Below are positions 35,245-64,000 of a stretch of DNA of 64,000 nt, in pieces. The stretch's first letter is position 1, and each line of letters begins with the position of its first letter. The translations under genes and the position numbers were made by a program. The notes below the pieces were generated by a model. That model made no database searches, was not told the origin of the DNA, and was given only the letters and a program-made list of their open reading frames with translations. The DNA comes from Nocardiopsis terrae (GTDB taxonomy: Bacteria; Actinomycetota; Actinomycetes; Streptosporangiales; Streptosporangiaceae), in NCBI RefSeq assembly GCF_014651695.1, contig NZ_BMXJ01000009.1:124001-188000 (forward strand), in the 5' to 3' direction.

Positions 35245-37872
<2,628 letters not shown>

Positions 37873-46656: not shown

Positions 46657-48201
46657 TCAGGCCGGTTCCGTATCCACCGCTCCGGCCGGTCTCATGGCCT
46701 TCGGCGGGGTCGACGGAGGCCGCCAGCGGAGCCCGTCTCCGCTCGGCACGAGTCCCTCCGCGGTGACGGGGCGCTCGATCACCCTTCCCGTCTCCGCGGC
46801 CATCGCCGACGCCTGAAGCCGCAGCCCGGTCCCCATCACGTCGCCGACCACCTCGGAGGAGAAGATCGGGTTTCCCCCCGCCTGCGCCTGCGGCTGCGTG
46901 CGCCGCACGTCCTGGGAGAGCCTGGCCGAGGTGCTCGCCATCCTCCGCCGCACCTCCTCGGCCTGTGTGACGAGGTCCTGCGCGTCGGCGATCCCGCCGA
47001 CCAGCTCGACGAACGCCTCCGCGTCCGTGCGCCCGCACCCCGCGACGTTGCGCGCCTGCCAGAAGTAGGAGTCCTCGTCGGCGTTCATGTCGTAGAAGCC
47101 CACGAGGAACTCGTAGAAGAGCCCGTACTCGCGTCGGTAACGGGCCTCGAACTCACCGAACCCGGCTTGCTCGTCGAGCTCGCCGGCGAGGCAGCTGTTG
47201 ACGGACCGTGCCGACAGCAGCGCGCTGTAGGTCGCCAGGTGCACACCGGAGGAGAACACAGGGTCGACGAAGCACGCGGCGTCGCCGACCGCCACGTACC
47301 CCGGAGACCAGAAACGGTCATCGCAGTAGGAGTAGTCCTTGCGGACCCGGACCCGCCCGTAGGGGCCGCTCGTGACCCGCTCGACCCCTTCGAGGTTGTC
47401 CCGGACGGTCGGGCACTGGTCGATGAGCCCGCGCAGCGCGGCCGCCTTGTCCCCCTTGAGCAGCCCAGCCGCGGAGCGGTCCACGACGGCACCGACACTC
47501 GTCAGGTCATCGCCCAGCGGGATGTACCAGAACCATCCGTGCTCGAACGCGATCGACTGGATGTTCCCGCTGTTGGGCTCCGGGCGGCGCTTTCCGCCCG
47601 CGAAGTAGCCGTACACAGCGATGTTGCGGAAGAACTCCGAGTACCTCCGCCGGATCCCCAGCCTCCGGTGGCTCGTCCCGGTGCTGCCGGAGGCGTCGAC
47701 GACGTACTTCGCCGCCACCCGGTGTTCGGCACCGGACGCGTCGGCGTAGACCACACCTCGCACCCTGCCCCCGTCCAGCACCAGGTCCCGCACCTCGCAC
47801 CGCTCGCGTACATCCACCCCGTTCTCGCGGGAGTGGTCCAGGAGTATCTGGTCGAACCTCATCCGCTCCACCTGGAAGGCGTAGGAGGTGGAGCCCTCCA
47901 GTTTGCTGGACGTGCCGAAGGTGAAGTCCCAAGGCTCCTCACCGGCGCCCCACTTGAAGTGGCCGCCGCGCTTGACCGTGAACCCCGCCTCCTCGATCTT
48001 CTCGCTCACTCCGAGGATCCGGCACACTCCATGGACTGTGGAGGGCAGGAGCGACTCGCCGATCTGGTGGCGGGGAAAACTCTCCCGTTCAAGCAGGACG
48101 ACGCTGTGGCCGTCCTTGGCGATGAGGGTGGCCGCCGTGGAACCCGCCGGCCCTCCGCCGATGACGACCACGTCAACGGACTCCACACCATTTCCTCGCA
48201 T
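46657..48201 (-). CDS. FAD-dependent halogenase (phenolic/carrier-bound substrate type)
   Basis: 514 residues from the ATG at 48201 (GGGAGGAATTG directly upstream). The FAD motif is GGGPAGST (about residues 15-22). Halogenase-specific features: a conserved Lys83 in GHFKWG, WxWxIP at 223-228 (GWFWYIP), and FVDPVFSSG at 311-319 (the Fx.Px.Sx.G motif). The last ~120 residues form the C-terminal domain seen in variant-B halogenases that act on tyrosine- or phenol-type substrates held on a carrier protein. It probably chlorinates the aryl unit made by the lyase and ligase at 53.8-56.5 kb. It is transcribed away from the glycosyltransferase and needs a flavin reductase not seen here. Confidence 0.87.
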   Translation of the reverse strand: MRGNGVESVDVVVIGGGPAGSTAATLIAKDGHSVVLLERESFPRHQIGESLLPSTVHGVCRILGVSEKIEEAGFTVKRGGHFKWGAGEEPWDFTFGTSSKLEGSTSYAFQVERMRFDQILLDHSRENGVDVRERCEVRDLVLDGGRVRGVVYADASGAEHRVAAKYVVDASGSTGTSHRRLGIRRRYSEFFRNIAVYGYFAGGKRRPEPNSGNIQSIAFEHGWFWYIPLGDDLTSVGAVVDRSAAGLLKGDKAAALRGLIDQCPTVRDNLEGVERVTSGPYGRVRVRKDYSYCDDRFWSPGYVAVGDAACFVDPVFSSGVHLATYSALLSARSVNSCLAGELDEQAGFGEFEARYRREYGLFYEFLVGFYDMNADEDSYFWQARNVAGCGRTDAEAFVELVGGIADAQDLVTQAEEVRRRMASTSARLSQDVRRTQPQAQAGGNPIFSSEVVGDVMGTGLRLQASAMAAETGRVIERPVTAEGLVPSGDGLRWRPPSTPPKAMRPAGAVDTEPA

Positions 48202-48483
48202 CAATTCCTCCCATGAAGAACCGGTTCGGACATTCACCGATCAACCTGTGGCGACCAGTAAATACAAACCGGATACCTGTTCCAAATCAAGATCTCATCG
48301 TTTTCCGGGCCGACGAGAACCCCCCGGGGCCCGTCTCGCCGGCGGGACGGGCCCCGATCGCACGGCGAACACAGCGCGACCTCCGCCGGACAGGACCATC
48401 AAAGAACTCCGAGGCCCGCGGTCCGTGGCCACCCTGAACCGCCACGGCCGACGCGCACCCCCGTTGACTCCGGAGAACTCCGG

Positions 48484-48513
48484 TTGACAATCATTGGCGG
48501 GGTAACAGATAAA
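48484..48513 (+). promoter_or_regulatory. promoter of the glycosyltransferase operon, with a Zur/Fur-like box
   Basis: TTGACA (48484-48489), an 18-nt spacer and GATAAA (48508-48513). The -35 overlaps TGACAATCATTGGCG (48485-48499), which matches 10 of 12 fixed positions of the actinobacterial Zur-type site TGAnAATnATTnTCA. The rest of 48202-48608 holds no gene. Confidence 0.5.
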
Positions 48514-48608
48514 ATCCGGAACGTGATACCCCAAGGAAAGAACGGCAAAGGCCTTCCAGCGATCCGGATCCACATACCACAACCGCCGGCATGAGACGGA
48601 TGACTTCC

Positions 48609-49925
48609 ATGCGCGTTCTATTCACCAGTTACGCCGAGAAGACGCATTTCTTCACCATGGTCCCCCTGGCGTGGGCACTGCGCACAGCCGGCCACGACGT
48701 ACGCGTCGCCAGCCAGCCCGAGCTCGTCGACGCGATCACCTCCACTGGACTGCCCGCCGTCCCGGTGGGCCGGGACCACGGCATCAGCCGGGTCCTCGCG
48801 GCCTTCCCCCGCCTCCGCGAGAAGATCGGCGAGGGAAAGCTCCCGCCCTTCGACCGGGCGGACGCCCCGGACGAGGATCTGACCTGGGACTACCTGAGAT
48901 CGGGCTTCGACGACGTGGTGCTGAGCTGGTTCCGGATCATGAACGACCCGATGGTCGAGGACCTGGTCGGATTCGCCCGTTCGTGGCGGCCCGACCTGGT
49001 GATCTGGGAACCGGGGACCTTCGCGGCGCCGATCGCGGCCGAGGCGGTGGGGGCCGTCCACGCCCGCCTGCTGTGGTGCGTGGACTTCTACGGGCGCACC
49101 CGCTCGCTGTACACACGGCTCAGGGACCAGCAACCGCCCGGAGCCGCCGGGGACGCGCTCGCCACGTGGCTGGACCGCACCGCGCGCCGGCACGGAGCAC
49201 GCTTCAGCGAGACGATGACCCACGGCCACTTCACCATCGACCAGCTACCGCCCTCCCTGCGCATGAACACGGGCTACCGCTACGTCCCGATGCGCCACTC
49301 GGTCTTCAACGGGCGGTCGGTCATCCCGCCGTGGCTGTGGGCACCGCCAGAACGCCCCCGCGTCTGCCTCACCCTCGGGATGAGCGCGACCGAGCGGCTC
49401 GCGGGCTACTCGGTGTCGGTGGGTGAGCTGGTGGAGTCGCTCGCGGAACTGGACGCCGAGATCGTGGCGACCGTGGCGGAAAAGGAACAGGACGCCCTCG
49501 GAACACTGCCCGACAACGTACGCGTGGAAAGCTTCGTGCCCCTGCACGCCCTGCTCCCCCACTGCGACGCCGTCGTCCACCACGGCGGATTCGGCTCCAC
49601 CTTCACCGCCATCGCCTCAGGCACACCCCAGGTCGCGATCCCCCAACAGCTGGACGCGCCGTTCACGGCACGCCGGCTCGCCGCCCAGGGCGCCGGCATC
49701 CACCTGACCACCGCCCAGGCCACCGGCGACCGCGTCCGCGACGCCGTCACACGCCTGCTCACCGACCCCGCCTACCAACGCGGCACGGACCGCCTCCGGG
49801 CGGAGATGATGGCACAGCCCACTCCGAACGCCCTGGTCCCGTCGTTGGAGGCGCTGGTCGCGGAACACACGGGCGCCCGTACCGCGGCCCCGGTGTCCGG
49901 ACCCGTAGCGGTGAGAGAGGTATGA
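48609..49925 (+). CDS. activator-dependent glycosyltransferase (GT1, macrolide-type)
   Basis: 438 residues from the ATG at 48609, which gives the usual family start MRVLFTSYAEKTHFFTMVPLAWALRTAGHDV; in-frame ATGs at 48591 and 48600 are also possible. The N-terminal acceptor half carries ASQPELVDAITSTGLPAVPV, and YVPMRHSVFNGRSVIPPWLW is the hinge block of EryCIII/DesVII-type enzymes. The donor half has VVHHGGFGSTFTAIASGTPQ and IPQQLDAPFTARRL. It should attach a TDP-deoxysugar to the core product. Relatives often need a cytochrome-P450-like helper protein; none is visible. The stop overlaps the ABC ATPase start (ATGA). Confidence 0.88.
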   Translation: MRVLFTSYAEKTHFFTMVPLAWALRTAGHDVRVASQPELVDAITSTGLPAVPVGRDHGISRVLAAFPRLREKIGEGKLPPFDRADAPDEDLTWDYLRSGFDDVVLSWFRIMNDPMVEDLVGFARSWRPDLVIWEPGTFAAPIAAEAVGAVHARLLWCVDFYGRTRSLYTRLRDQQPPGAAGDALATWLDRTARRHGARFSETMTHGHFTIDQLPPSLRMNTGYRYVPMRHSVFNGRSVIPPWLWAPPERPRVCLTLGMSATERLAGYSVSVGELVESLAELDAEIVATVAEKEQDALGTLPDNVRVESFVPLHALLPHCDAVVHHGGFGSTFTAIASGTPQVAIPQQLDAPFTARRLAAQGAGIHLTTAQATGDRVRDAVTRLLTDPAYQRGTDRLRAEMMAQPTPNALVPSLEALVAEHTGARTAAPVSGPVAVREV

Positions 49926-50803
49926 GCGGGGTCGAACTCGACGGGGTGACCCTGCGCGACCAGGATGCGACCATCCTCGACCGCATCTCACTGCGGCTGG
50001 AGAGCGGAAGGGTCCACGGTGTCCTTGGCCCGAGCGGCGCCGGGAAGTCGAGCCTGTTGTCCCTGATCGCCGGCTTCTCGCCCGCCACGTGCGGCACGGT
50101 GCGCGTCGGCGGCCGACCGCTCGGCGTCGGCGGGGTGATCATCACCGAACAGGTCGGCCTCGTCCGCGGGCACCTGGTTCCCGACCCCGCCAGCAGGGTC
50201 GAGGACACCCTGGCCTTCACCGCGAGCCTGCGCTCCCATTGGTGCGACCAGGTGGCCCTGCGGCTCCTCGACCGCTTCAGGATCCCGCTCGGCGCACCGC
50301 TCTCCCGCCTGTCACAGGGGGAACTGTCCGCGGTCGGCACGGTCCTCGGCCTCGCCGCCCGGACACCGGTCACCCTCCTCGACGAGTGCTGCACCGGTAT
50401 GGACGCGAGGATGCGCGACGTGTTCCTCGACGAGCTCCTGGCCGACCTGATGGTGTATCCGCGCACCGTAGTCATCGCCACCCAGCTGATCCAGGAGGTC
50501 GGTCCGCTGTTCGACGACGTGGTCGTCCTCGACCGGGGCCGCGTTCTCCTCCATGAGCGGGTCGGCGACCTCCAGTCGCACGGCACGTGCGTCACCGGAG
50601 CCGTGGAACAGGTCGACGACCTCGTCCGCGGGCTCCCCCAGCTCGACGAACGGGAGCTCGGCCCGGCCAAGTCGGTCGTCGTGTACGGTCCGCTCAGCGA
50701 GGAGCGGCTCGCCCTGGCCCGGGAACTCGGTCTGGATCTGTCACCCATCGGATTGCCGGAGCTCATGGCCCACCTGGTCGAGGACACGCACGGGCCCCGT
50801 TGA
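49922..50803 (+). CDS. ABC transporter ATP-binding protein with altered H-loop
   Basis: 293 residues; ATG overlaps the glycosyltransferase stop. Walker A is GPSGAGKSS (about residue 38), the signature is LSQGELSAVG and Walker B is VTLLDECCTGMD. In the switch region the usual His is replaced by Gln (VIATQLIQEVG). The C-terminal ~80 residues are a helical extension. It probably pairs with the large permease at the right edge (62036-64000) as an exporter or self-resistance pump for the cluster product (inference). The H-to-Q change occurs in some weak or asymmetric ATPases. Confidence 0.82.
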   Translation: MSGVELDGVTLRDQDATILDRISLRLESGRVHGVLGPSGAGKSSLLSLIAGFSPATCGTVRVGGRPLGVGGVIITEQVGLVRGHLVPDPASRVEDTLAFTASLRSHWCDQVALRLLDRFRIPLGAPLSRLSQGELSAVGTVLGLAARTPVTLLDECCTGMDARMRDVFLDELLADLMVYPRTVVIATQLIQEVGPLFDDVVVLDRGRVLLHERVGDLQSHGTCVTGAVEQVDDLVRGLPQLDERELGPAKSVVVYGPLSEERLALARELGLDLSPIGLPELMAHLVEDTHGPR

Positions 50804-50892
50804 CGCGGGGAGCCCGCCCGCACCGTCCCCCGCTCCGCGGAAGGCCCACCCCTCCCCGGTCCCAGGGCCGGACTCCTCTCGGAGGTCCATCG

Positions 50893-51891
50893 ATGCAGGA
50901 TCCCCACGTGACCACGCCCGTCGCCCTCGGTGCGATCGGCTGCAGCGACATCGCCAGGCGCCGCACGCTGCCCGCCGTCACCGCCTCGGACGCGACCCGG
51001 CTCGTCTGCGTCGCCGCGCGTGATGTCCGGCGCGCCCGGAAGTACGCCGACGAGTTCGGGTGTGCGGCGGCGCGGAGCTACACGCACCTGCTCCAGCGCC
51101 CGGACGTGACCGCGGTCTACATCTCGCTTCCCGCCGCGCTGCACGCCGACTGGGCCGAACGGGCACTGCGGGCGGGCAAGCACGTCCTGGTGGAGAAGCC
51201 GCTCGCGACCGACGGAGCGCAGGCGGAGCGGCTCGCCCGAGTGGCGACCGACCTGGGTCTGGTCCTGATGGAGAACTTCGCGTTCGTCCACCACCGCCAG
51301 CACGCCGAGGTCGACCTCCGGGTGCGCCGGGGGGACATCGGCGCACCGCGCTCGTTCGCCGCGTCCTTCACCATCCCGCCTCGTCCCGCCGACGACATCC
51401 GGTACCGCGCCGACCTGGGCGGCGGCTCTCTGCTCGACAACGGGGTGTACCCGCTGCGAGCGGCCCTGCGCTTCCTCGGCCCCGGCCTCGATATCGCCGG
51501 GGCCGTGCTGCGCGAGGACCGCGACCGTGGGGTGGTCGTCTCGGGCAGTGCCCTCCTGGTGTCGCGGCAGGGAGTAAGCGCCCACCTGTCCTTCGGGATG
51601 GAGAACGCCTACAGCGCCTACTACCGGATCGAGGGCAGTACCGGATCGCTCGGCCTCGACCGCGCGTTCACCCCGCCGCCCGACCACCGCTGTGTCCTCA
51701 CCGTCCACGGCCCCGGGGGCGAGGAGCGGATCGCCATGCCCGCGGACGACCAGTTCGCCGCCATGGTCCGAGACTTCGCGGGTGCGGTGGCGCGCCCCGG
51801 CGCCACCGCACCCGCGTTGTCGGACTCGCTGCGGTTGTCGGCCCTCGTGGATCGGATCCGCGCCGAGGCCGTTTACGTGACCGTGCGGTGA
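50893..51891 (+). CDS. Gfo/Idh/MocA oxidoreductase, NDP-hexose 3-ketoreductase-like
   Basis: 332 residues; ATG at 50893 with TCGGAGG 7 nt upstream. The NAD(P) motif is GAIGCSDIARR and the catalytic EKP motif is VLVEKPLATDG (about residue 95). MENFAFVHHRQHAEV and GGGSLLDNGVYPLRAALRFL are typical of deoxysugar ketoreductases. In glycoside pathways this family reduces the 3-keto group left by the 2,3-dehydratase to give a 2-deoxy sugar. The last 19 bp overlap the convergent ABC gene. Confidence 0.85.
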   Translation: MQDPHVTTPVALGAIGCSDIARRRTLPAVTASDATRLVCVAARDVRRARKYADEFGCAAARSYTHLLQRPDVTAVYISLPAALHADWAERALRAGKHVLVEKPLATDGAQAERLARVATDLGLVLMENFAFVHHRQHAEVDLRVRRGDIGAPRSFAASFTIPPRPADDIRYRADLGGGSLLDNGVYPLRAALRFLGPGLDIAGAVLREDRDRGVVVSGSALLVSRQGVSAHLSFGMENAYSAYYRIEGSTGSLGLDRAFTPPPDHRCVLTVHGPGGEERIAMPADDQFAAMVRDFAGAVARPGATAPALSDSLRLSALVDRIRAEAVYVTVR

Positions 51892-53750
51892 GACCGCGGC
51901 GCCGACACGGCGCCGCCCACGACCGCCTCCTCCCGATCCTCCTCGAGCCCGGGGACCTCCTGGGCGACCAGGAACTGGGTGGAGGCCAGGTCCCGGTACA
52001 GACCGTCCCCGGCGACGAGTTCGTCGTGGGAGCCCACCGCGCGAATCTCCCCCTCCTCCATGACCACGATCCGGTCAGCCACCGTGACCGTGGACAGGCG
52101 GTGCGCGACGACCATCACCGTGGTCTCCTCGCGAAGGTCCTCCACGATCTCCCTGATCGCCATCTCGTTGTTCGCGTCCAGCTGGGAGGTCGCCTCGTCC
52201 AGCAGAAGCAGCCTCGGGCTACGCAGGAGCGCACGGGCGATGGCCACGCGCTGGCGTTCACCGCCGGACAGGGAGCTGCCGCGGTGGCCGACCTGCGTCT
52301 CCAGCCCCTTCGGCAGCCGCTCGACGAGGCCGCCCAGCCGTGTCTTGGCGATCACCCGGCCGATCTCCTCGTCACCGACGCCGCGCGCGCCCAGCGTCAG
52401 GTTCTCGCGCAGGGTCCCGGCCAGGACCGGGGCGTCCTGTTCCACGTAACCGATGACGGAGCGCAGTTCGGCCAGCGGCCACTCGCGGACGTCGCGCCCG
52501 TCCACCAGGACAGCGCCGGACTCGGGTTCGTAGAAGCGCTCCAGCAGGGCGAACACCGTCGACTTCCCGGCGCCGGAGGGACCGACGAACGCCGTCAGGC
52601 CGCGCGGGGGCACGTTGAAGCCGACCCCCCTGTGCACGAGTGGGCCGTTCTCGGTGTACCGGAAGACGACGTCCTCGAAAGCGACCCCGGCCGGCTCCGG
52701 ATCCTCCGCCCCCGCGGGCTCTGGGGGCCGGGCCAGGCCCGGTTCGGTGTCCAGCGACAGCACCTCGCGGATCCTGCTCAGGGCCGCGGCCCCGGCGTTG
52801 AAGTTGGCCGCGGCGCTGACCAGCGAACCCATGGGGGATACCAGGTAGAAGACATAGAGCAGGAAGGCGATCAGCGTACCCACGTCGGTGTCACCGGTGA
52901 CGACGCGCGCGCCGCCCACCCCCAGTACCGCGAGGAAGGTGAGCTGGACGGCGATACCCACCGCGGTCCCGTTGACGGCCTCCAGCAGGCCGACCCGCAG
53001 ACCGTGCTTCCAGGCGTTCCTCGCGGCCCGGTCCGAGGTGGTGATCTCCTCGTGCTCGGCGCCGGCGGCCTTGACCGTCCGGAAGGTACCGAGCGTACGC
53101 TCCAAGGACGCGTTGAGGTCGCCGACCTCCGACTGCACCTTGCCCGTGGCGGTCTGGATGTGCGGGACGATCATGCCGACGACCACGGCCGCGAGCGCGA
53201 GCACCCCCGCGGTCGCCCCGAGCAGGACCAGGTCGAGCGTGGCCATCATGATCAGGATCGCCACGACCACGACACCCCCGGTGACCGTCTCCACGAGGGC
53301 TTGGCTCACCACCGTCCGCAGCAGGGTGGTGTCCGTCGTGACCCGCGACATGAGATCGCCCGGGGAGTACTTCGAGGTCTCCGACAGCCGGAGCCGCAGC
53401 AGGCGGCCGAGCAGTCGGCGACGCGACTCCAGGACCACGGACTCGGCGATGCGTTGCAGGACGTAGTAGCCGATCGTGTTGAAGACCGCCGCCAGCACGA
53501 CTAGCAGGGTGAGGAACAACAGGGCGCGGTTGACCGCCTCCCCCGCGTCCAGGCCGTCGACCACCATCTTGGCGGCGACCGGCTGGACCACCGCCACCAG
53601 GCTGCCGAGCAGTGCGAAGAACCCGCCGAAGAACAGCAGGGACCTCTGGGGCCGCAGATACGAGAACATGTCCCGCCAGGCGGTCGCGCTGAGGACCGCA
53701 GCCCGGCCCTCCTGCTCCTCCTGGCCGTCTCCGGTCGTCTGTCGAGTCAT
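51873..53750 (-). CDS. ABC exporter, fused TMD-NBD (half-transporter)
   Basis: 625 residues. An ABCB-type membrane domain of six helices (residues 30-320: RPQRSLLFFGGFFALLGSLV, SKYSPGDLMSRVTTDTTLLR, LLYVFYLVSPMGSLVSAAAN) precedes a nucleotide-binding domain with GPSGAGKSTVFALLERFYEP, LSGGERQRVAIARALL and LLLLDEATSQLDANN. It would form a homodimeric exporter, likely for the cluster product or its toxic intermediates. Its own promoter must lie between 53751 and the strong hairpin of 53785-53821. Confidence 0.92.
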   Translation of the reverse strand: MTRQTTGDGQEEQEGRAAVLSATAWRDMFSYLRPQRSLLFFGGFFALLGSLVAVVQPVAAKMVVDGLDAGEAVNRALLFLTLLVVLAAVFNTIGYYVLQRIAESVVLESRRRLLGRLLRLRLSETSKYSPGDLMSRVTTDTTLLRTVVSQALVETVTGGVVVVAILIMMATLDLVLLGATAGVLALAAVVVGMIVPHIQTATGKVQSEVGDLNASLERTLGTFRTVKAAGAEHEEITTSDRAARNAWKHGLRVGLLEAVNGTAVGIAVQLTFLAVLGVGGARVVTGDTDVGTLIAFLLYVFYLVSPMGSLVSAAANFNAGAAALSRIREVLSLDTEPGLARPPEPAGAEDPEPAGVAFEDVVFRYTENGPLVHRGVGFNVPPRGLTAFVGPSGAGKSTVFALLERFYEPESGAVLVDGRDVREWPLAELRSVIGYVEQDAPVLAGTLRENLTLGARGVGDEEIGRVIAKTRLGGLVERLPKGLETQVGHRGSSLSGGERQRVAIARALLRSPRLLLLDEATSQLDANNEMAIREIVEDLREETTVMVVAHRLSTVTVADRIVVMEEGEIRAVGSHDELVAGDGLYRDLASTQFLVAQEVPGLEEDREEAVVGGAVSAPRSHRTVT

Positions 53751-53784
53751 GGGATACCTCCGTGCGTGTGCCGTAAGAACCGGT

Positions 53785-53821
53785 GCCGGTGGCCGCTCCG
53801 CGGCGCGGAGCGGCCACCGGC
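53785..53821 (-). terminator. very strong hairpin between the lyase and the ABC exporter gene
   Basis: GCCGGTGGCCGCTCCGC (53785-53801) is perfectly complementary to GCGGAGCGGCCACCGGC (53805-53821), a 17-bp stem with a 3-nt loop. It separates the ligase-lyase operon from the downstream ABC gene. Confidence 0.75.
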
Positions 53822-53831
53822 CGACCTGTGC

Positions 53832-55352
53832 TCAGGAGGACCGTTCCTCCTCCAGCCAGTCGGCCGCCGCGCGCGAGACCGCGTCCCGGGCGGCACGGAC
53901 CTCGGCGGCCAGCGGCCGGTCCCGGTCCAGGGGCGGCGAGACGCGCGCGAGCTCGTCCCACAGGCCGCCCCCGCTGGTTCCGCGTCCGGTGAGCGCCGAA
54001 TACTGGGTCAGGCCCAGCGCGAGCGACCCGATGGTCAGCCATGCCAGCTTCACGGCCTCGGAGACCGAGTTGGCGCCGTTCAGGGCCATGGGGACGTGGT
54101 CCTGGTTGCCGCCGTTGGTGGGCAGCGTCGTCAGAGAGGCGGGATAGCAGAGCTGGCGGATCTTGGCGACGAACGACGTGGCGCTGAGCTGGACCCCCGC
54201 CAGTCCGCTCCCGCTGCCCGGACGCGGGGTCAGCATCGGCGCCAGTTCGCCGTTGGTCGTGGGCGTGCACAGCAGGGACAGCTGGCGGTCGGCCAGGTAG
54301 GCGACCTGCTGCAGGCACAGCGCCGTCTGGTCCGAGCTCAGGCCCACCGGCATCGCATGGAAGTTCCCGCCGTGCAGGACCTCTCCCTCGAAGCAGATCG
54401 GGTTGTCGGTGGTGCCGTTGGCCTCCCGGCACAGCACCTGCTCGATGAAGTCGAGCTGGTCCTGCACCGCGCCGAGAATCTGCGGCACGCAGCGGACGCT
54501 GTACGGCTCCTGAAGGGGCCGGTCTGCTGCGCGCTCGGCCCCCGCCGGCAAGTCCGCGCGGATCCACTCGGCGACGGTGAGCTGGCCGCGCTGGCCGCGC
54601 ACGTGGGCGAAGCCGGGCTCGTAGGCCTCGGGGTTCGAGCCGAGCAGCCCGGCCATACGCGCGGTCAGGCCCGCCACGGCCCGCACCATCCGCGCCACCT
54701 CGGCGTGGTTGTGGACGGCCACGGCGAGGCCCACGCTGGTTCCGTTCACGAAGGCGAGCGCCTCCCGGGCCGGCCAGACGATCGGCTCCACGCCCAGGGC
54801 GCGCAGCGCCTCGGCGGCGGGCACGACCGTGAACGTGCCGTCCTCGGTCCTCTGCCAGGCCTCGCCGACACCGGCGTAGGCCAGGGCCGCGTGCGCCAGG
54901 GGCTGGAGGTCACCGCTGGCGCTGACCGTGCCCTCGCGCGGGATCACGGGCGTAAACCCGCGGTTCCACAGCTCCGCAAGACCGTCCCAGAAATCGGGTG
55001 AGACCCCGGAGTGGCCCTTGCGCATGCTGTTCAACCGGATCCACACGACGAGGCGGCACACCTCGGGGGCCAGCGGATCGCCCTGCCCGGTGCCCAGGTG
55101 CGCGATCAGGCCGCTGCCCTGCTGCTCGTGGGAGCTGTCGGCCTGGAAGGCCACCAGAGGTCCGAAGCCACGGGTGATCCCGTACACGTCCTGGTCCGAC
55201 GCCAGCGCCTTGGCCAGGACGTCCTGGCTCTCCTGCATCCGTTCACGGTCGCCCGGCCCGCACTCGGGCAGGGCGGCGTCCCATCCCGCCGCGCGGATGA
55301 CGGCGTCCAGGCTGTCGGCGGTGTTCTTCTCGGCGGTAACGGTAGTCGTCAC
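53832..55352 (-). CDS. MIO-type aromatic amino acid ammonia-lyase/aminomutase, tyrosine-type
   Basis: 506 residues. Ala145-Ser146-Gly147 in TVSASGDLQPLAH form the MIO cofactor. Tyr57 (DVYGITRGFG) is the catalytic Tyr. GTTDNP, YSVRCVPQILG and NQDHVPM are family blocks. The selectivity switch after LI is His85-Leu86 (GLIAHLGTG), as in tyrosine enzymes rather than the Ser-His of histidine lyases or Phe-Leu of phenylalanine lyases. It would turn tyrosine into p-coumarate or beta-tyrosine; sequence alone does not decide between lyase and mutase. Its ATG overlaps the stop of the ligase gene upstream (55349-55352). Confidence 0.88.
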   Translation of the reverse strand: MTTTVTAEKNTADSLDAVIRAAGWDAALPECGPGDRERMQESQDVLAKALASDQDVYGITRGFGPLVAFQADSSHEQQGSGLIAHLGTGQGDPLAPEVCRLVVWIRLNSMRKGHSGVSPDFWDGLAELWNRGFTPVIPREGTVSASGDLQPLAHAALAYAGVGEAWQRTEDGTFTVVPAAEALRALGVEPIVWPAREALAFVNGTSVGLAVAVHNHAEVARMVRAVAGLTARMAGLLGSNPEAYEPGFAHVRGQRGQLTVAEWIRADLPAGAERAADRPLQEPYSVRCVPQILGAVQDQLDFIEQVLCREANGTTDNPICFEGEVLHGGNFHAMPVGLSSDQTALCLQQVAYLADRQLSLLCTPTTNGELAPMLTPRPGSGSGLAGVQLSATSFVAKIRQLCYPASLTTLPTNGGNQDHVPMALNGANSVSEAVKLAWLTIGSLALGLTQYSALTGRGTSGGGLWDELARVSPPLDRDRPLAAEVRAARDAVSRAAADWLEEERSS

Positions 55353-57039: not shown

Positions 57040-57717
57040 ATGGAAGCTGCCAACAGAAATCCCGCGGCGACGGCCACCGGCTCCAGAGCCGACAAGAAGA
57101 CATCCCCTATCCGCGACTCTGAGAAGAAAATGTCGCTGGACACCAAAGCCCTGACGAAGAGGACCTCCCTTTTCCTCCCCGAGGGCATGCCGATGGACGA
57201 ATGGCGCTACCTCGGTCAGCAGATCTTCGTCATCTCCGACTCCTCCGGATGGTGGTTGGGCGACTGGCTGGTGTACGGCCAGAGCCAGTACCCGGACCGG
57301 TACAAGATGGCGATCTCCGAGACCTCGCTCGGCTACCAGACCCTGCGCAACTACGCGTGGGTCGCACGACAGTTCTCCGTGCCCCGCCGACGGACCGGCC
57401 TGAGCTTCCAGCACCACGCTGAGGTGGCCGGGCTACCGGAGGAGGCACAGGACATGTGGCTCGACCGCGCCGAGCGGTTCCGGTGGTCCCGAAACGAGTT
57501 GCGCAGGCGCATCCGCAGCAGCGCGAGCATCAAGCGCGCGATCAGGGGCGAGGTTCCGGCACGGGTCGAGGTACAACTGCGCGCGGCAACCGAACAGCGC
57601 AACCTCTGGGAGAAGGCTGCCCGCAGCGAGGACAAGAACCTCACCGAGTGGATCGTCGGCATCCTCGACAGGGCCGCGACGGCCCTCGAAGACAGCCCGG
57701 ACCCGGACGATGGCTGA
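57040..57717 (+). CDS. LmbU-family transcriptional regulator
   Basis: 225 residues. The conserved core is nearly identical to the family pattern: YLGQQIFVISDSSGWWLGDW, LVYGQSQYPDRYKMAISETS, LGYQTLRNYAWVARQFSVPR, TGLSFQHHAEVAGLPEEAQD and WLDRAERFRWSRNELRRRIR. LmbU proteins activate antibiotic clusters such as that of lincomycin. The first ~35 residues are disordered. It is placed at the head of the sugar operon and divergent from the ligase-lyase operon, so it probably activates both sides. Confidence 0.92.
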   Translation: MEAANRNPAATATGSRADKKTSPIRDSEKKMSLDTKALTKRTSLFLPEGMPMDEWRYLGQQIFVISDSSGWWLGDWLVYGQSQYPDRYKMAISETSLGYQTLRNYAWVARQFSVPRRRTGLSFQHHAEVAGLPEEAQDMWLDRAERFRWSRNELRRRIRSSASIKRAIRGEVPARVEVQLRAATEQRNLWEKAARSEDKNLTEWIVGILDRAATALEDSPDPDDG

Positions 57718-57780
57718 CCGCGCGGCCCCCGCCTTCCCCCCACCCCCGCGACCAATCCCCTCACCTGGAGGTACAGCGCC

Positions 57781-58890
57781 ATGACCATCGCCGTCTGGGG
57801 CTACACGGACGAATACGAAAGCGAACGCTCCGAGATCCTTCAGGCCGTGGACACGGTCTTTCGATCCGGCCGCCTGGTTCTCGGTGAGCAGGTCAGCGGT
57901 TTCGAGGACGCGTTCGCCGCGTACCACGGGCTCGCGCACGGCACCGGCGTGGGCAACGGCACCGACGCACTGGTCCTGGCCCTGCGGGCCCTGGGTGTCG
58001 GCCCCGGCGACGAGGTGGTGACGGTGGCCAACACCGCCGCGCCCACAGTCGTGGCCATCGACTCGGTCGGGGCCGTCCCGGTGTTCGTGGACGTCCATCC
58101 GGACACCTACCTGATGGACGTGTCCGCGGTGGCCGACGCCGTCACCGAGCGCACCCGCTGCCTCCTGCCGGTGCACCTGTACGGACAGTGCGTCGACATG
58201 GAACCGCTGATGGCGGTCGCGGAGGAGCACGGTCTGCCCGTCCTGGAGGACTGCGCCCAGGCCCACGGTGCGCGGCGGCACGGCGTGGTGGCGGGAGCCC
58301 GCGGCAACGCCGCGGCCTTCTCCTTCTACCCGACCAAGGTCCTGGGCGCCTACGGCGATGCCGGGGCGGTGATCACGGGCTCCGACGATGTGCAGGCCGC
58401 CCTGCGCAGGCTGCGCTACTACGGGATGGAGCAGAGGTACTACGTCGTCTCGACTCCGGGCTACAACACCCGGCTCGACGAGGTGCAGGCCGCCATCCTG
58501 CGACGCAAGCTCGACAGGCTCGACGGGTACATCGCGCGCCGACGGGAGATCGCCGCCCGGTACGCCGAGGGGTTCGCCGGCACCGACCTGGTCCTGCCCG
58601 CCGTCGCCCCCGGCAACGACCACGTGTACTACCTCTACGTCGTGCGCCATCCGCAGCGGGACCGGATCATCAAGGAGCTCCACTCGTACGGCATCGAGCT
58701 CAACATCAGCTACCCCTGGCCCGTGCACACCATGGCGGGCTTCGAGCACCTGGGCTACGCCCCGGGCAGTCTCCCCGTGACGGAGGAGACGGCCGGGCAG
58801 ATCTTCTCCCTGCCCATGTACCCCTCGCTGCCACGGGAGTCGCAGGACCGGGTGATCGAGGCCCTGCGCACCGTCATGGCGGAGCTGTGA
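57781..58890 (+). CDS. DegT/DnrJ/EryC1 sugar aminotransferase (probable 3-aminotransferase)
   Basis: 369 residues; ATG at 57781 with TGGAGG upstream. Substrate and PLP motifs: [31 protein letters not shown], and the PLP-Lys in [18 protein letters not shown]. The [14 protein letters not shown] block is like EvaB/DnmJ-type enzymes that add the amino group at C-3 of a 2,3-dehydratase product. A 4-aminotransferase cannot be excluded. It is the first of four sugar genes in a row (57.8-62.0 kb). Confidence 0.87.
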
Positions 58891-58945
58891 ACCCCGAGGA
58901 GCCGGCCTCCCCCACGGCCCGACACCGAACCCACGGAGGAACCAG

Positions 58946-60364
58946 ATGACGCTCGACGCGGCCCTCGGCGCCGTCGCGGACCCGCTCACCCGCTCGGCCC
59001 TGGCACCGGCCTCCGACCACGACGCGGCCTTCGACGGGTGGTGGCGCGGCCGCGTCCTCGCCGGCGGGTTCCGCGTGGTCCCCGTACCCTTCGCCGAGCT
59101 GTCGCGGTGGGGCTTCGACCCCGTCTCGGGCGACCTCGGACACGACACCGGGGGGTTCTTCACCGTCCGAGGGCTGCGTGTCACACGCGGGGAGCACGGC
59201 GTCCACCACCAGCCCGTCATCGACCAGCCCGAGATCGGCGTCCTGGGCATCCTGGTGAAGGAGTTCGACGGCGTCCCCCACTGCCTGATGCAGGCCAAGA
59301 TGGAGCCGGGCAACGCCAACACCCTCCAGCTGTCCCCCACCGTCCAGGCCACCAGGAGCAACTACACCCGGCTGCACGAGGGGGCCGGGGTCCGGTATCT
59401 GGAGTACTTCAACGGAACCGTCCCGACCCGGGTCCTGTCCGACTCCCTGCAGTCGGAGCAGGGCGCGTGGTTCCTCGGCAAGTTCAACCGGAACATGGTC
59501 GTCATGACCGACGCCGAGGTCCCCGAGCACCCGGACTACCACTGGCTCACCCTGCGGCGGCTGCACTCCCTCCTGGCCACCGACAACCTGGTGAACATGG
59601 ACTCGCGCACGGTGCTCGGGTGCATGGACCTCGCCCTCGGGTCCGGAGACGGCGAGGAGGCCACACCGTTTCGCGGCGCCCTGGCTCGCTCCTACCGGCC
59701 GCCGGCCGGACCGGCCTCCCCTCCGGCCGCACGGCACACCCTGACCGAGGTCACGAGCTGGCTGGCCGACGCGCGCACGCGGTGCGGCTGGCGATCCAGG
59801 ACCGTCCCTCTCCGAGAGGTCCCGAACTGGCACCGGGGCGCGGACGAACTGGCCGACGGGTCCGGCCGCGACTTCCGCGTCATCGGGGTGCGGGTCGAGG
59901 CGGGCAACCGCGAGGTCACCAGCTGGCACCAGCCCCTGCTGGCCCCGCGCGGGGAAGGGATCGCGGTCTTCCTGGTCCGCCGTCTGAGGGGGGTGGCGCA
60001 CGTGCTCGTCCAGGCCCGACCCGAACCGGGCCTACGCGACTTCGTGGAGATGGCACCCTCCTACCAGCGTCCAGGCGGGATCAACGCCGCTGTCCCCGGG
60101 GAGCCGACCGCCGTCCGCACCGAGGCTCTCAGCACGGACCCCTCCCGCGTGCACTTCGACACGCTCCTGTCCGAGGAGGGCGGGCGCTTCCACCACGCGC
60201 AGACCCGCTACCGCGTGGTCGAGGCCTCGGACGCCCTGCCCGAGGACCCCGGGCCGGCGTTTCGATGGCTCGCCGTGCACCAGCTCATGGACCTGGTGCG
60301 GCACGGCCACTATCTCAACGTCGAGGCCCGCAGCCTCCTCGCGTGTCTGCACGGACTCCTCTAG
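58946..60364 (+). CDS. NDP-hexose 2,3-dehydratase
   Basis: 472 residues with the internal duplication typical of the family. Half 1 carries HHQPVIDQPEIGVLGILVKE and LMQAKMEPGNANTLQLSPTV. Half 2 carries SWHQPLLAPRGEGIAVFLVR and LVQARPEPGLRDFVEMAPSY. NTLQLSPTVQATRSNYTR is the diagnostic block. The enzyme (EvaA/TylX3 type) removes the C-2 hydroxyl of TDP-4-keto-6-deoxyglucose, committing the sugar to the 2-deoxy series. It lies in the four-gene sugar operon. TDP-glucose synthase and 4,6-dehydratase are not in the window. Confidence 0.93.
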   Translation: MTLDAALGAVADPLTRSALAPASDHDAAFDGWWRGRVLAGGFRVVPVPFAELSRWGFDPVSGDLGHDTGGFFTVRGLRVTRGEHGVHHQPVIDQPEIGVLGILVKEFDGVPHCLMQAKMEPGNANTLQLSPTVQATRSNYTRLHEGAGVRYLEYFNGTVPTRVLSDSLQSEQGAWFLGKFNRNMVVMTDAEVPEHPDYHWLTLRRLHSLLATDNLVNMDSRTVLGCMDLALGSGDGEEATPFRGALARSYRPPAGPASPPAARHTLTEVTSWLADARTRCGWRSRTVPLREVPNWHRGADELADGSGRDFRVIGVRVEAGNREVTSWHQPLLAPRGEGIAVFLVRRLRGVAHVLVQARPEPGLRDFVEMAPSYQRPGGINAAVPGEPTAVRTEALSTDPSRVHFDTLLSEEGGRFHHAQTRYRVVEASDALPEDPGPAFRWLAVHQLMDLVRHGHYLNVEARSLLACLHGLL

Positions 60365-60397
60365 GGAACCACTGAAACCAACGAAAGCAGGGCCACG

Positions 60398-61042
60398 GTG
60401 CGAAGCCGCCCCCTCGCCGTCCACGGCGCCCACCTGTTCACCCCCGACGTGTTCCCGGACCACCGGGGACTGTTCACCGCGCCCCACCAGAGAGAGCACT
60501 TCGAGGCCGCCACCGGCCACCGGCCGCCCCCCGTCGAGCAGCTGGCCTACAGCCACTCCCGGCGGGGGGTCGTCCGGGGCGTGCACTTCACTCGGACACC
60601 GCCGGGGATCGCCACCCTGGCCCACTGCCCGACGGGCACCGCCTTGGACCTGGTGGTCGACCTGCGGCTGGGATCGCCGACCTTCGGCCGGTTCGACACC
60701 GTCGTCCTCAGCCCCGACGACCGCTCCAGCGTCTACCTTCCGGTCGGGGTCGGACACGCCTTCGTCGCCTTGGAGGAGGACACCGTCATGTCCTACCTCC
60801 TCTCCGGCGGGTACTCCCCCGCCGACGAGAAGGCCGTCGACGTGTTCGACCCGGAACTGGGCCTCCCCCTTCCCGAGGGGATCACCCCGGTGGCGTCCGC
60901 CCGGGACCGGGACGCACCCTCCCTCGCCGAGTGCCGTGAGGCCGGGATCCTCCCCGACTACGCGGAGTGCCTCCGGGTCGAGCACGAACTGGTCGGCCCG
61001 CCGCCGGAACTCCCCGTCTCCCCTGCCCGGGGCGGGGAGTGA
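60398..61042 (+). CDS. dTDP-4-keto-6-deoxyhexose 3,5-epimerase family
   Basis: 214 residues; GTG at 60398. The cupin fold is clear from DVFPDHRGLFTAPHQREHF and the catalytic-His block SRRGVVRGVHFTRTPPG, then VVDLRLGSPTFGRFDTVVLS and YLPVGVGHAFVALEEDTVMS. It may act at C-5 only or at both C-3 and C-5, which would give an L-sugar. It is followed by the ketoreductase with a GTGA overlap. Confidence 0.9.
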   Translation: MRSRPLAVHGAHLFTPDVFPDHRGLFTAPHQREHFEAATGHRPPPVEQLAYSHSRRGVVRGVHFTRTPPGIATLAHCPTGTALDLVVDLRLGSPTFGRFDTVVLSPDDRSSVYLPVGVGHAFVALEEDTVMSYLLSGGYSPADEKAVDVFDPELGLPLPEGITPVASARDRDAPSLAECREAGILPDYAECLRVEHELVGPPPELPVSPARGGE

Positions 61043-62028
61043 CCTCCCCGCGCACGGTCGCGGTCCTCGGGGCGTCCGGGCTGATCGGTTCGGCCGTGGC
61101 CGACCTGCTCTCCCGGCGCCCCGTCGACCTGCGGCTGGTCGCGCGCCGAGCGGTCACTCCCCCCGCCGACGGGCCGGCACGGGTCCAGGTCCTCAGCGGG
61201 GACCTGACCGATCCCCGCTTCGCAGCCACAGCCGTGCAAGGCGCGGACGTCATCGTCCACCTGGTGTGCCACCGGGTGCCGGGCGCCAGCTGGAGGGTGG
61301 CAGAGGGCGACGCCCGCGCGGAGTCGGTGAACGTGGGAACGGTCCGTGCCGTCGTCGAAGCGCTGGGGCGGTCGGGTACCCGACCGCCCCCGGTCTGCGT
61401 CTTCGCCGGTTCGACCTCCCAGGCCGGAGCGGTTGCGGGCCGACCGCTCGACGGAACCGAGCCCGACCGGCCCACCTCCACCTACGACCGGCAGAAGCTC
61501 ACCGCCGAACGGCTGTTGAAGGACGCCACCGCGCGGGGCAAGGTCCGGGCGGTCTCACTCAGGCTGTCCACGGTCTTCGGCCCCGCCTCCTCGCCGACGG
61601 CGCACGACCACGGCCTGGTCTCGACGATGGCGCGCAGGGCCCTGGCCGGTTCCGCTCTCACCCTGTGGGGCAGCGGCCTCGTCGAACGGGACCTGTTGTA
61701 CACGGACGACGCCGCCCACGCCTTCGCGGCGGCGATCGACCACGCCGACGGCCTCGCGGGCGGTCACCACCCGGTCGGGGCCGGGAGCCCGGTCCGACTC
61801 AGCGACCTCTTCGGGAGGATCTCCCGGGCGGTCGCGGCGGCCACCGGCCAGCCGCCCGTGCCCGTCGTGCGGGAGGAGCCGCCCGGTCACACGGCCCCCA
61901 CCGACGCCGTCGGCGTCCGGATCGACCCCTCGCCCTTCGCCGCGGCCACGGGCTGGAGCCCTCGGGTGGGCTTGGACGAGGGGTTGCGCCGCACGGTCGA
62001 CCGCCTGATCCGTGCTTCCCAGGCGTGA
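61039..62028 (+). CDS. dTDP-hexose 4-ketoreductase (extended SDR)
   Basis: 329 residues from the GTG at 61039 overlapping the epimerase stop. The Rossmann motif is VLGASGLIGSAVADLL. The catalytic Tyr and Lys are in STYDRQKLTAE, the core is FAGSTSQAG, and SLRLSTVFGP and LYTDDAAHAFAAAIDHADG mark the C-terminal part. It would set the final C-4 stereochemistry. Together the operon order fits synthesis of a 3-amino-2,3,6-trideoxy sugar. Confidence 0.88.
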   Translation: MTSPRTVAVLGASGLIGSAVADLLSRRPVDLRLVARRAVTPPADGPARVQVLSGDLTDPRFAATAVQGADVIVHLVCHRVPGASWRVAEGDARAESVNVGTVRAVVEALGRSGTRPPPVCVFAGSTSQAGAVAGRPLDGTEPDRPTSTYDRQKLTAERLLKDATARGKVRAVSLRLSTVFGPASSPTAHDHGLVSTMARRALAGSALTLWGSGLVERDLLYTDDAAHAFAAAIDHADGLAGGHHPVGAGSPVRLSDLFGRISRAVAAATGQPPVPVVREEPPGHTAPTDAVGVRIDPSPFAAATGWSPRVGLDEGLRRTVDRLIRASQA

Positions 62029-62035
62029 TCCGTGC

Positions 62036-64000
62036 TCAGCCGACCGTGCTGTCGGAACGGTCCCCGCCCCGGTTCCCGTCCGTCTCCGGCGTGCTCTCAC
62101 CGGAGCCCGCCGCGGGAGCGGGGCCGAGCAGGATCCGACCGATCAGGTAGACCATGAACACACCGGCGGCGAGCATCACCAGGCTGCCGGGGACCTGCCA
62201 GGCACCGGGCAGGTACAGGGGCAGGTGCCAGCCGGGCTGACCGGCTCCGCCCAGGGACCGAAAGAGCGACGCGGCGCCCTGGTAGATCGGCAGCCAGAAC
62301 GTGCAGCCGAGCACTGCCAGCACGGCGCCGCGTCCTGACGACATGGACTCGACATTGCGCTCGATCCTGGTGACGAACGCCCATTCGGCCTCGGGCTTGT
62401 CCTCCTGCTCGTCCTCGGACTCCTCCTCGCCGTCGGCTCCGGCCGACGCACCCCAGCGCAGGGTGCCGAGCAGTTCCGGGCCCCGCTTCTCCAGCCGCCG
62501 GTAGGCGACCCGGCCCAGGCCCCAGCCGAGCAGGAGCCCCCACAGGACGCCCACGGCCGTCCCCGACCACATCAGGGCCGGGATCTCCAGGAAGTAGCCG
62601 GCAGCGGTGACGATCGTGGGGGGCACAGCCGTCACGATCATCAGGGGGAACATGACGTTGAACTGGGCCACGACGTCGCCCGAGTCCAGGGGGTTGCCCC
62701 CGTGCCGGTGCGGTTCGGGACCGGGGGCCGGCCAGGCGACGGCGAACAGGACGATGAGCCCGGCCCCACCGCCGACGAGCGCCGGAAGCGCCGCGGACAC
62801 CCACGGCAGCGCCCAGGACTGACCGGTCAGGACCATCCCGCCGAGAGAGACCAGTACCGCCGGCGGGACAAAGACCACGAGCCAGGCGATCTGGCGGCCG
62901 CGGACGTCACTGCGCTCGGCGCCGGGGGTGAGCAGCGTCTGCCAGAGCGCGCTGCCGTCCAGAGCGTAGATGTTCAGCGACATCAGGGCGGCCAGAGCGA
63001 TCGTGATGAGGCCGGACAGCGGAATCATGAACGTCAGTCCGACGAGCAGGCCCAGCGCGCAGATGAGGACCCCGGTCCACAGCGCGATGCGCAGTTCCAG
63101 CGCGCGCCGGGGGTCGGACCCCCAGGTCCGCAGTTCGCGGCCCACGACCGCGCCCAGCGGAGTGGAGGGAAGCGCCCCGACGATCAGGCCGCTGACACGG
63201 CGGCCGCCCCGGGAGGGGCGGGTCGTCGGTCTGGTGACGCGCTGGTGGATGAGCGCACTCCACCCCAGCAACAGAAGGACGTTGACCACGGCGAGTCCGG
63301 CGACGGCGCCGAGTGCCACCGCCCACCCGCCCTGCCCGGCCGCCTGGACGGCGGCCGCACCCCATCCGGAGGGAAGGGCGAGGACGAGCGTGCCGTAGGG
63401 AGCGGGCAGGCCCTGTGCCCAGATCTGCCCCAGGACGTCGCCGTGCTGGGAGGCCGCCTGGTAGAGCATGTACACGGAAAAGCCCGTGGCCAGGACCGCT
63501 GCGTACTGGACGGCCGTGATCTCGACGCCGATCCGGGTCCGCAGCGCCGCCCCGGTCAGGGCCATGACGAGGCGGGACGCCAGGACGGCGAAGACGACCT
63601 GGAGGGGCACCGCGATCAGTGCCACCAGAGCCGCGAGGAACCCGAAGCGGATGCCGAGCGTGAGCAGCGACAGGAACGCCGCGAGCGTGACGGGGACCGT
63701 CACACCGACGAACGAGGCGGCAAGCAGGCCCACGGCGACGGTCCGCGGCTGTATGGGCTCCAGGGCGAAGTACTCGGGCTTGAGGGACTCGTCGCCGCCG
63801 CCCGCACCCGAGGGGCCCACGATCCAGCCCAGCACCCACACGCCGACGACCGCGGCGAGCAGGGAGGGGGCCACCTCGATCGGGGCGAAGACCGAGATCG
63901 CGATCGTGGCCAGCGCCAGGGCGAGTCCGATAACCCCGCCCAGGGTCCGCCGGTTGCTCGACCCGTGGCGGAGCACCGACAGCTTCATCTGCACCATCAC
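62036..64000 (-). CDS. large ABC-2-type permease (probably complete or nearly so; start at window edge)
   Basis: At least 654 residues reading off the right edge; a possible ATG at 63988 begins MKLSVLRHGSSNRRTLGG. There are about 14 membrane segments in two halves of similar layout, with a long cytoplasmic acidic loop (EEESEDEQEDKPEAEWAFV) near residue 560. It resembles permeases such as those exporting lantibiotics and other metabolites (ABC-2 superfamily). It is convergent with the ketoreductase gene (8-bp gap). Its likely ATPase partner is at 49922-50803 (inference). Confidence 0.78.
   Translation of the reverse strand: MMVQMKLSVLRHGSSNRRTLGGVIGLALALATIAISVFAPIEVAPSLLAAVVGVWVLGWIVGPSGAGGGDESLKPEYFALEPIQPRTVAVGLLAASFVGVTVPVTLAAFLSLLTLGIRFGFLAALVALIAVPLQVVFAVLASRLVMALTGAALRTRIGVEITAVQYAAVLATGFSVYMLYQAASQHGDVLGQIWAQGLPAPYGTLVLALPSGWGAAAVQAAGQGGWAVALGAVAGLAVVNVLLLLGWSALIHQRVTRPTTRPSRGGRRVSGLIVGALPSTPLGAVVGRELRTWGSDPRRALELRIALWTGVLICALGLLVGLTFMIPLSGLITIALAALMSLNIYALDGSALWQTLLTPGAERSDVRGRQIAWLVVFVPPAVLVSLGGMVLTGQSWALPWVSAALPALVGGGAGLIVLFAVAWPAPGPEPHRHGGNPLDSGDVVAQFNVMFPLMIVTAVPPTIVTAAGYFLEIPALMWSGTAVGVLWGLLLGWGLGRVAYRRLEKRGPELLGTLRWGASAGADGEEESEDEQEDKPEAEWAFVTRIERNVESMSSGRGAVLAVLGCTFWLPIYQGAASLFRSLGGAGQPGWHLPLYLPGAWQVPGSLVMLAAGVFMVYLIGRILLGPAPAAGSGESTPETDGNRGGDRSDSTVG

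Follow-up and report, generated by a model that had tools for sequence, protein, structure and literature searches.

A probable saarvienin-type gene cluster in Nocardiopsis terrae, predicted to specify a chlorinated, sugar-decorated small peptide

What kind of compound would be made by a set of genes that places a phenolic-type halogenase near an aromatic amino acid lyase, a discrete adenylating enzyme and a series of deoxysugar genes? The question is raised by the right end of a 64,000-nucleotide stretch of the Nocardiopsis terrae genome (6.0 Mb), positions 124001-188000 of the 259,025-base contig NZ_BMXJ01000009.1 (C9); this whole stretch is referred to below as the window. An earlier note, made from the letters of the window alone, had listed these genes between positions 46657 and 64000, along with a macrolide-type glycosyltransferase (GT), an LmbU regulator and three transporter parts, and all of them are present there. 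The product that it had imagined, one with several sugars, a tyrosine-derived unit, a phenolic-type halogenase and a discrete ligase, is supported by our analysis. Its proposal that the core genes lie outside the window was also borne out, since two nonribosomal peptide synthetase (NRPS) genes are found to the right of the edge on the same contig. The first begins 14 kb beyond the edge and both finish by 29 kb, within the ~60 kb in which a core gene had been expected. The TDP-glucose synthase and 4,6-dehydratase genes anticipated beyond position 64000 are there too (Table 1).

These genes are a real, near-complete cluster, a variant within an antibiotic family whose description is very recent, although the structure of the product is something that we infer from them. 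Judging from gene content, this is very probably a saarvienin-type cluster for a chlorinated, sugar-decorated small peptide, and its distinctive parts are the halogenase, the assembly line and the sugar set. In the literature searched no description of this variant was apparent, and no report was found that combined vancosamine, forosamine, 2,3-diaminopropionic acid (Dap) and an NRPS.

Kinship with the saarvienin and saccharomicin clusters

The cluster occupies ~50 kb, from ~46.6 to ~96.9 kb when the numbering of the window is extended beyond 64000 (contig position = window position + 124000, that is, 170.6-220.9 kb of C9); the window carries its left third and the rest lies beyond the right edge on the same contig. 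Its nearest described relative is the system for saarvienin A (PMC12171682), which is HHPP-DAPA-(beta-Me-Cl-Trp)-DAPA-Phe, a ureido-bridged bis-Dap glycopeptide in which a urea carbonyl links the two DAPA side chains and the HHPP phenol bears a set of five sugars, eremosamine first. A cluster is proposed for it, though not yet proven: BGC14 of Amycolatopsis sp. YIM10. It has NRPSs of four and two modules (with Cys for the first His in one condensation motif of the two-module protein), Dap genes, a lyase with an AMP-binding protein, a tryptophan (Trp) halogenase coupled with a methyltransferase, and four GTs (PMC12171682).

Our comparison with saarvienin was made through a locus of genome G401, which has NRPSs of 4189 and 2407 aa, the condensation motif CHAILDG, four GTs, SbnA and SbnB, and a 497-aa Trp halogenase (447 bits). 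For every feature compared this locus accords with the published cluster, and we infer that G401 is the saarvienin producer or close kin. The N. terrae cluster resembles the saarvienin one in its two-protein NRPS, the second protein having two modules and the Cys-His (C-H) motif, as well as in its Dap genes, aromatic lyase with AMP-binding protein, four GTs, eremosamine genes and possession of a halogenase. The G401 counterparts are 32% (carrier protein) to 73% (MbtH) identical, the ligase 46%. The earlier note's refuting case, a near match among fully known clusters, is thus realised only in part: the match is at 32-73% protein identity, and to a proposed cluster rather than a proven one. The differences are equally clear. 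The first N. terrae NRPS protein has three modules, not four, and lacks the first module (M0); the halogenase is of the CndH type, with no Trp halogenase coupled to a methyltransferase; the codes of modules M3 and M5 differ; and there are a tetradeoxysugar branch (RfbH and the aminotransferase AT2) and an extra ABC exporter. Conversely, the MaoC-SDR and flavin monooxygenase proteins of G401 have no match among the 33 window-region proteins compared.

The discrete ligase proved a convenient guide to relatives. It is present in 28 of the 345 genomes of an order-level sample (N. terrae included) and in 10 of 80 Amycolatopsis genomes (E 1e-60), and a genome scan gave at least 78 loci, 58 of which were mapped. 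The lyase stands beside it in 18 of the 20 order-sample neighbourhoods mapped; some of the mapped neighbourhoods have just a stand-alone adenylation (A) domain, others an NRPS like that of N. terrae. Nine larger loci were compared gene by gene: those of G401, G312, G044, G042, G040, G353, G125 and G346, and that of the saccharomicin genome G435, for which 60 kb, ending inside the sam cluster, were examined. All nine have the lyase, the ligase (44-50% identical), AT1, the 2,3-dehydratase, the epimerase, the C-methyltransferase, RmlA and the GNAT protein, and eight have the ketoreductase; among the eight NRPS loci, MbtH is universal while SbnA, SbnB and the carbamoyltransferase occur in seven. 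NRPS2 is 54-60% and NRPS1 41-55% identical to the counterparts in G401, G312, G044, G040 and G353, the NRPS2 match in G353 covering 64% of the length. The constant features of the set are therefore the lyase, the ligase and most eremosamine genes (9/9), the Dap genes with the carbamoyltransferase (7/8), and an unusual condensation domain and Cys-type thioesterase (8/8; see below); the variable ones are the halogenase, M0, M3, M5 and the sugars.

At E 1e-8 the N. terrae permease, ABCa, ABCb and short-chain dehydrogenase/reductase (SDR) have no match in the nine loci, and AT2 and RfbH have distant ones only (25-33%). The wider set of loci does contain RfbH relatives at 70-77% (L033/L054, L035/L060, L040/L059), as well as relatives of ABCa (51%, L058) and of the SDR (45%, L099). 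More divergent relatives were noticed in Streptomyces abikoensis (L162-L164) and S. rhizoryzae (L080), which share the lyase, ligase and carbamoyltransferase but whose NRPS codes differ; near the S. abikoensis set are also the Dap genes, together with seven GTs side by side.

The left part of the cluster also resembles the saccharomicin sam cluster of Saccharothrix espanaensis (PMC3469384), with a lyase (64%), ligase (47%), LmbU, RmlA, eremosamine-type genes and EryCIII-type GTs in common. However, the NRPS, Dap genes, carbamoyltransferase and halogenase have no match in the 60 kb of G435, and ten GTs are reported for sam (PMC3469384), as against four GTs and a five-module NRPS in N. terrae. 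Could the locus then be two unrelated clusters that happen to adjoin, a saccharomicin-like coumaroyl-oligosaccharide set on the left and a Dap-peptide NRPS on the right? Each half can be found alone: the lyase-ligase-LmbU-sugar cassette without an NRPS in that 60 kb, the ligase among so many order-sample genomes with several neighbourhoods showing a stand-alone A domain only, and the Dap genes, carbamoyltransferase and NRPS without lyase and ligase in genome G145. Nevertheless, both halves occur together in G401, G312, G044, G042, G040 and G353 and, more divergently, in G346 (in G125 they are on separate contigs), and in N. terrae sugar genes and GTs flank the NRPS genes on both sides. We consider such a chance juxtaposition improbable.

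The lyase, the ligase and the halogenase

The lyase and ligase genes overlap by 4 bases. Although the ligase gives just a weak Pfam AMP-binding match (14.5 bits, cut-off 29.9), its best NCBIfam family is 4-coumarate-CoA ligase. The lyase is a member of the methylideneimidazolone (MIO) enzymes, and its closer assignment is delicate. Among NCBIfam families the histidine lyases score highest (333 bits), followed by tyrosine lyase (234) and the mutase (231, cut-off 501), none reaching its cut-off. A search of the PDB with a profile of the family ranks histidine lyases (281 bits) above 2o6y (260), which we take to be a tyrosine lyase, and above the mutases (240). At the selectivity position the lyase family has His-Leu, presumably a tyrosine mark, in place of the Ser-His of the solved histidine lyase. 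Furthermore, the protein has 64% identity with the ligase's neighbour in the saccharomicin genome. There sam8 together with sam5 is reported to convert tyrosine to coumarate and then caffeate, Sam8 being a tested tyrosine ammonia-lyase (PMC3469384). The gene overlap with a coumarate-ligase-like gene and this saccharomicin counterpart make p-coumarate likelier than beta-tyrosine; the N. terrae enzyme is thus likely a tyrosine ammonia-lyase, though sequence scores alone do not separate lyase from mutase.

The opposite assignment, a tyrosine aminomutase whose chlorinated beta-tyrosine would be used as in kedarcidin or C-1027 but without the enediyne, draws on the phenolic kind of the halogenase, on the near-equal mutase and tyrosine-lyase family scores and on a single-sequence PDB search in which solved tyrosine aminomutases (196 bits) exceed 2o6y (182). 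But those family scores are far below their cut-offs, the profile search reverses the order of 2o6y and the mutases (with histidine lyases ahead of both), the overlap with the ligase gene and the likeness to Sam8 fit a lyase, and there is no ketosynthase on the contig. We find the mutase improbable. The chlorinated beta-tyrosine of the earlier note survives as a tyrosine-derived unit, while beta-tyrosine itself is disfavoured by the lyase-ligase overlap and the presence of the same pair in saarvienin-type clusters and the saccharomicin genome. The note's analogy with enediynes has to be abandoned, and an enediyne core was rejected, as none of the genome's 23 ketosynthase matches is on C9.

The closest solved relative of the halogenase is CndH, the chondramide halogenase (3e1t), at 519 bits with the main match over residues 3-408, far above the next, CmlS (257 bits). 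CndH belongs to chondramide biosynthesis, and its system differs from that of N. terrae, where the halogenase substrate is probably the lyase-derived phenol. None of the five A-domain codes looks aromatic, which makes this phenol the likely substrate. No halogenase homologue was detected in the nine compared loci at E 1e-8, and the wider set of loci gave matches of 28-32% (L098, L125, L127). The gene's same-strand neighbour encodes a YCII protein. A literature search on the glycocinnamoylspermidines (cinodine) turned up nothing on their biosynthesis.

The assembly line, its predicted residues and the pathway

The two NRPS proteins comprise 3 + 2 modules with five A domains and a thioesterase (TE). 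The short ligase, therefore, is not a substitute for NRPS adenylation as had been supposed, given five A domains just outside the window. Module codes were compared across seven clusters (N. terrae, G401, G312, G044, G040, G353 and G125). That of M1, DLTKVGSVAK, varies by 0-1 residues; M2 is DAWQFATIDK in five of the seven, DAWQLATIDK in G401 and DAWQYAGIEK in G353; and M4 is D(V/F)WN(V/I)xxxHK in all, 1-4 residues from the N. terrae version. In contrast, M3 and M5 are variable, the N. terrae M3 (DVDEVSTVTK) coming near the DVDENGTVTK of G040 and G353. By resemblance of the codes, M2 would presumably be Gln-like, M4 Thr-like and M5 Gly-like. When the modules of G401 are placed in register with saarvienin, M2-M5 read Dap-Trp-Dap-Phe, making M2 and M4 the Dap positions. 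It fits this meaning that the M2 code and M4-like codes recur in G145, beside SbnA, SbnB and a carbamoyltransferase in another NRPS arrangement. The G145 locus (C22, ~2.62-2.65 Mb, L210-L211) has DVWNVAMVHK twice and no lyase or ligase match in the 80 kb mapped; from its genes it appears to be a different, Dap-rich peptide cluster. As for G353 (L202, Amycolatopsis anabasis), its NRPS ends in C(CH)-T-TE and no A domain was found in M5, implying either that the residue is loaded in trans or that the module is skipped.

The last condensation domain has CHAVLDG at NRPS2 residue 1254, where Cys replaces the first His of HHxxxDG. Over the seven clusters this domain forms a single clade (100/100 support, long branch of 2.39 changes per column), with C-H in six of them and F-H in G044 and in the G042 piece; all eight retain the second His, which is catalytic. 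Since saarvienin contains the M5 residue (Phe) in register, the C-H domain is a doubtful mark of a skipped module. At the other end, the N-terminal condensation domains of G401 and G125 have lost the second His (HQSAGG, HQSAGD), whereas C1 in the six other sets read retains both His and the Asp (HHxxxDD), so that M0 is not plainly dead there. We consider it more likely that the uncounted modules belong to the N-terminal part. In all eight sets (N. terrae, G401, G312, G044, G042, G040, G353 and G125) the TE carries Cys where Ser is normally found (GWCxxx), with Asp and His kept; this Cys-type TE, which is not mentioned in the passages of the saarvienin account consulted (PMC12171682), appears to be a shared mark of the family.

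That the cluster is decayed or silent, its assembly line broken by the loss of M0 and C1 (both present in all six other sets, whereas the N. terrae protein begins with an A domain), is very unlikely, considering that both NRPS frames are open, that all five carrier domains keep their Ser and all four condensation domains the second His and Asp, that the TE Cys is common to seven other sets, that the scaffold gaps are in GT genes outside the NRPS, and that A-T loading modules are normal in NRPSs.

Both Dap genes score above their NCBIfam cut-offs. The carbamoyltransferase gene comes immediately after NRPS2 both here and in G401 (69% identical). It matches the ornithine carbamoyltransferase (OTC) family but with 231 bits falls under the NCBIfam cut-off of 281; in both genomes it keeps STRTR and HPTQ, presumably the carbamoyl-phosphate motifs, and has HDLP instead of HCLP and no SMG loop. 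Its predicted substrate is Dap or a Dap residue. Two further homologues are on contig C6 of the same genome and 34 of 341 genomes of a family-level sample have one (E 1e-60), so it is not confined to clusters of this type. Nineteen of those loci were mapped: six adjoin an NRPS2-like end at 48-54% identity, among them G145 in its different arrangement, and six more at 38-41%. A viomycin- or capreomycin-type peptide, with Dap and a carbamoyltransferase, was considered and set aside without a formal test. A Pfam scan of the cluster genes revealed none of the P450 cross-linking enzymes of the vancomycin type, no dedicated P450 search having been made.

With respect to the sugars, AT1, the 2,3-dehydratase, the C-methyltransferase, the epimerase and the ketoreductase-like protein match the eremosamine/vancosamine route. 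The RfbH-type dehydrase, the TlmJ-like AT2, the Gfo/Idh reductase and the methyltransferase would fit a forosamine-like sugar, an assignment that we make by analogy with the spinosyn genes; alternatively, the methyltransferase could N-methylate eremosamine, as in saarvienin.

We propose that the lyase would convert tyrosine to p-coumarate, which the ligase would activate and load onto the 86-aa carrier, and that the halogenase would chlorinate the phenol, probably on the carrier. The NRPS would join the M1-M5 residues, M2 and M4 using Dap or its carbamoylated form (beta-ureidoalanine), and the carbamoyltransferase would supply the one-carbon unit for a urea link from one Dap side chain to the other. 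The aryl unit would cap the peptide, the GTs would build on its phenol a short chain that combines an L-sugar of the eremosamine/vancosamine type with a forosamine-type 4-amino-tetradeoxysugar, and ABC exporters would secrete the product. A bolder version, which we offer tentatively, has the urea bridge derive from carbamoyl phosphate through the repurposed OTC: Dap would be carbamoylated, M2 would load beta-ureidoalanine and the ring would close on the M4 Dap, possibly at the C-H domain or the Cys-type TE. The chlorine would have shifted to the coumaroyl cap from its place on tryptophan, the NRPS would naturally be without the N-terminal module that is unaccounted for in saarvienin, and the published "module skipping" would be N-terminal rather than at the C-H domain. 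With the variant and its relatives at hand, both the number of modules and the source of the urea carbon can be put directly to the test.

Several points weigh against a saarvienin-type peptide, to which the single-sequence PDB search should be added, in that histidine lyases came above both the mutases and 2o6y. SbnB stands apart from SbnA in N. terrae and shares only 32-46% identity with its counterparts, and no match to SbnA, SbnB or the carbamoyltransferase was seen in the G353 stretch compared. G401 was identified from gene content, and the halogenase-coupled methyltransferase of the published cluster was not identified there (a small neighbour of the halogenase was left unscanned). The A-domain codes were extracted against a GrsA fragment, and that of M5, DILQFGLVWK, read DILQFGLVSK in a first alignment, one position being unstable. 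As saarvienin has six modules for five units, with no simple mapping, the residue assignments are uncertain. Moreover, lacking the saarvienin-type Trp halogenase and the first module, N. terrae must make a peptide different from saarvienin. The structure of the product and the sequence in which it would be halogenated, acylated and glycosylated are our reconstruction, as is the enzymatic joining of the aryl cap to the peptide.

Gene inventory and surroundings

The features of the cluster are collected in Table 1. Genes in the flanks were called with a codon-usage script and their start positions are approximate.

Table 1. Features of the N. terrae cluster in window coordinates; those from 63997 onwards continue or lie beyond the window edge.
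Feature	Position	Strand	Basis
Flavin-dependent halogenase, CndH type, predicted phenol chlorination	46657-48186	-	Pfam Trp_halogenase 232 bits; best PDB CndH 3e1t 519 bits
GT1, activator-dependent EryCIII-type glycosyltransferase	48609-49925	+	TIGR04516 535 bits, cut-off 440
ABC transporter ATPase	49922-50803	+	Pfam ABC_tran
Gfo/Idh/MocA oxidoreductase, predicted sugar 3-ketoreductase	50893-51891	+	Pfam; homologues in 6/8 NRPS loci compared
ABC exporter, membrane and ATPase domains fused	51873-53750	-	Pfam; 54-55% in G401 and G353, 95-96% of length
Aromatic amino acid lyase family (MIO type), predicted to be a tyrosine ammonia-lyase	53832-55352	-	Pfam 393 bits
Short 4-coumarate-CoA-ligase-like adenylating enzyme	55349-56482	-	TIGR02372 54 bits, cut-off 335
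LmbU-family regulator	57130-57717	+	NF038070 229 bits, cut-off 125
Sugar aminotransferase AT1, predicted eremosamine/vancosamine 3-aminotransferase	57781-58890	+	Pfam DegT 371 bits; 70-74% in 9/9 loci
NDP-hexose 2,3-dehydratase	58946-60364	+	Pfam 455 bits
dTDP-sugar 3,5-epimerase	60398-61042	+	Pfam 153 bits
4-Ketoreductase-like, NAD-dependent epimerase family	61039-62028	+	Pfam 147 bits
Putative ABC permease, 657 aa, 9 bases past window	62036-64009	-	No Pfam match; hydrophobic segments by eye; next gene ABC ATPase
ABC ATPase, start probably further upstream	63997-64605	-
SbnB (Dap synthesis)	65118-66167	+	391 bits, cut-off 327
GT2 glycosyltransferase	66172-67503	-
TlmJ-like aminotransferase AT2	67524-68657	-	PDB 5uid 483 bits
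Methyltransferase	68654-69403	-
RfbH-type 3-dehydrase	69427-70728	-	658 bits, cut-off 423; PDB 3bcx 513 bits
SDR	70828-71646	-
Probable carrier protein, 86 aa	71652-71912	-	PP-binding 19.3 bits, just under cut-off 20.8
TDP-glucose 4,6-dehydratase	71943-72935	-	421 bits, cut-off 365
Thymidylyltransferase (TDP-glucose synthase)	72959-73843	-	396 bits, cut-off 361
GT3 glycosyltransferase, with scaffold gap	74255-75523	+
C-methyltransferase	75595-76827	+
OTC-like enzyme (carbamoyltransferase)	76856-77779	-
NRPS2, C-A-T-C-A-T-TE, 2400 aa	77910-85112	-
NRPS1, A-T-C-A-T-C-A-T	85120-93267	-
MbtH	93373-93576	-
SbnA (Dap synthesis)	93685-94683	-	405 bits, cut-off 350
GNAT	94748-95317	-	Just under Pfam cut-off
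GT4 glycosyltransferase, interrupted by scaffold gap	95581-96859	+

Immediately to the left of the cluster region, at window positions 30674-37872, is a row of chaperone genes (hsp70, grpE, dnaJ, clpB), which suggests that the biosynthetic cluster adjoins core chromosome. On the right, a SARP/AfsR-type regulator gene follows GT4 (L010:4976-7876) and may be either a member of the cluster or a marker of its edge. Stretches of identical nucleotides recur among the four GT genes, with a maximum of 104-180 bases depending on the pair, which we read as a sign of recent recombination among these paralogs. The two scaffold gaps of 10 N each lie inside the GT3 and GT4 genes, with none in the NRPS genes, and both may have been caused by these shared stretches.

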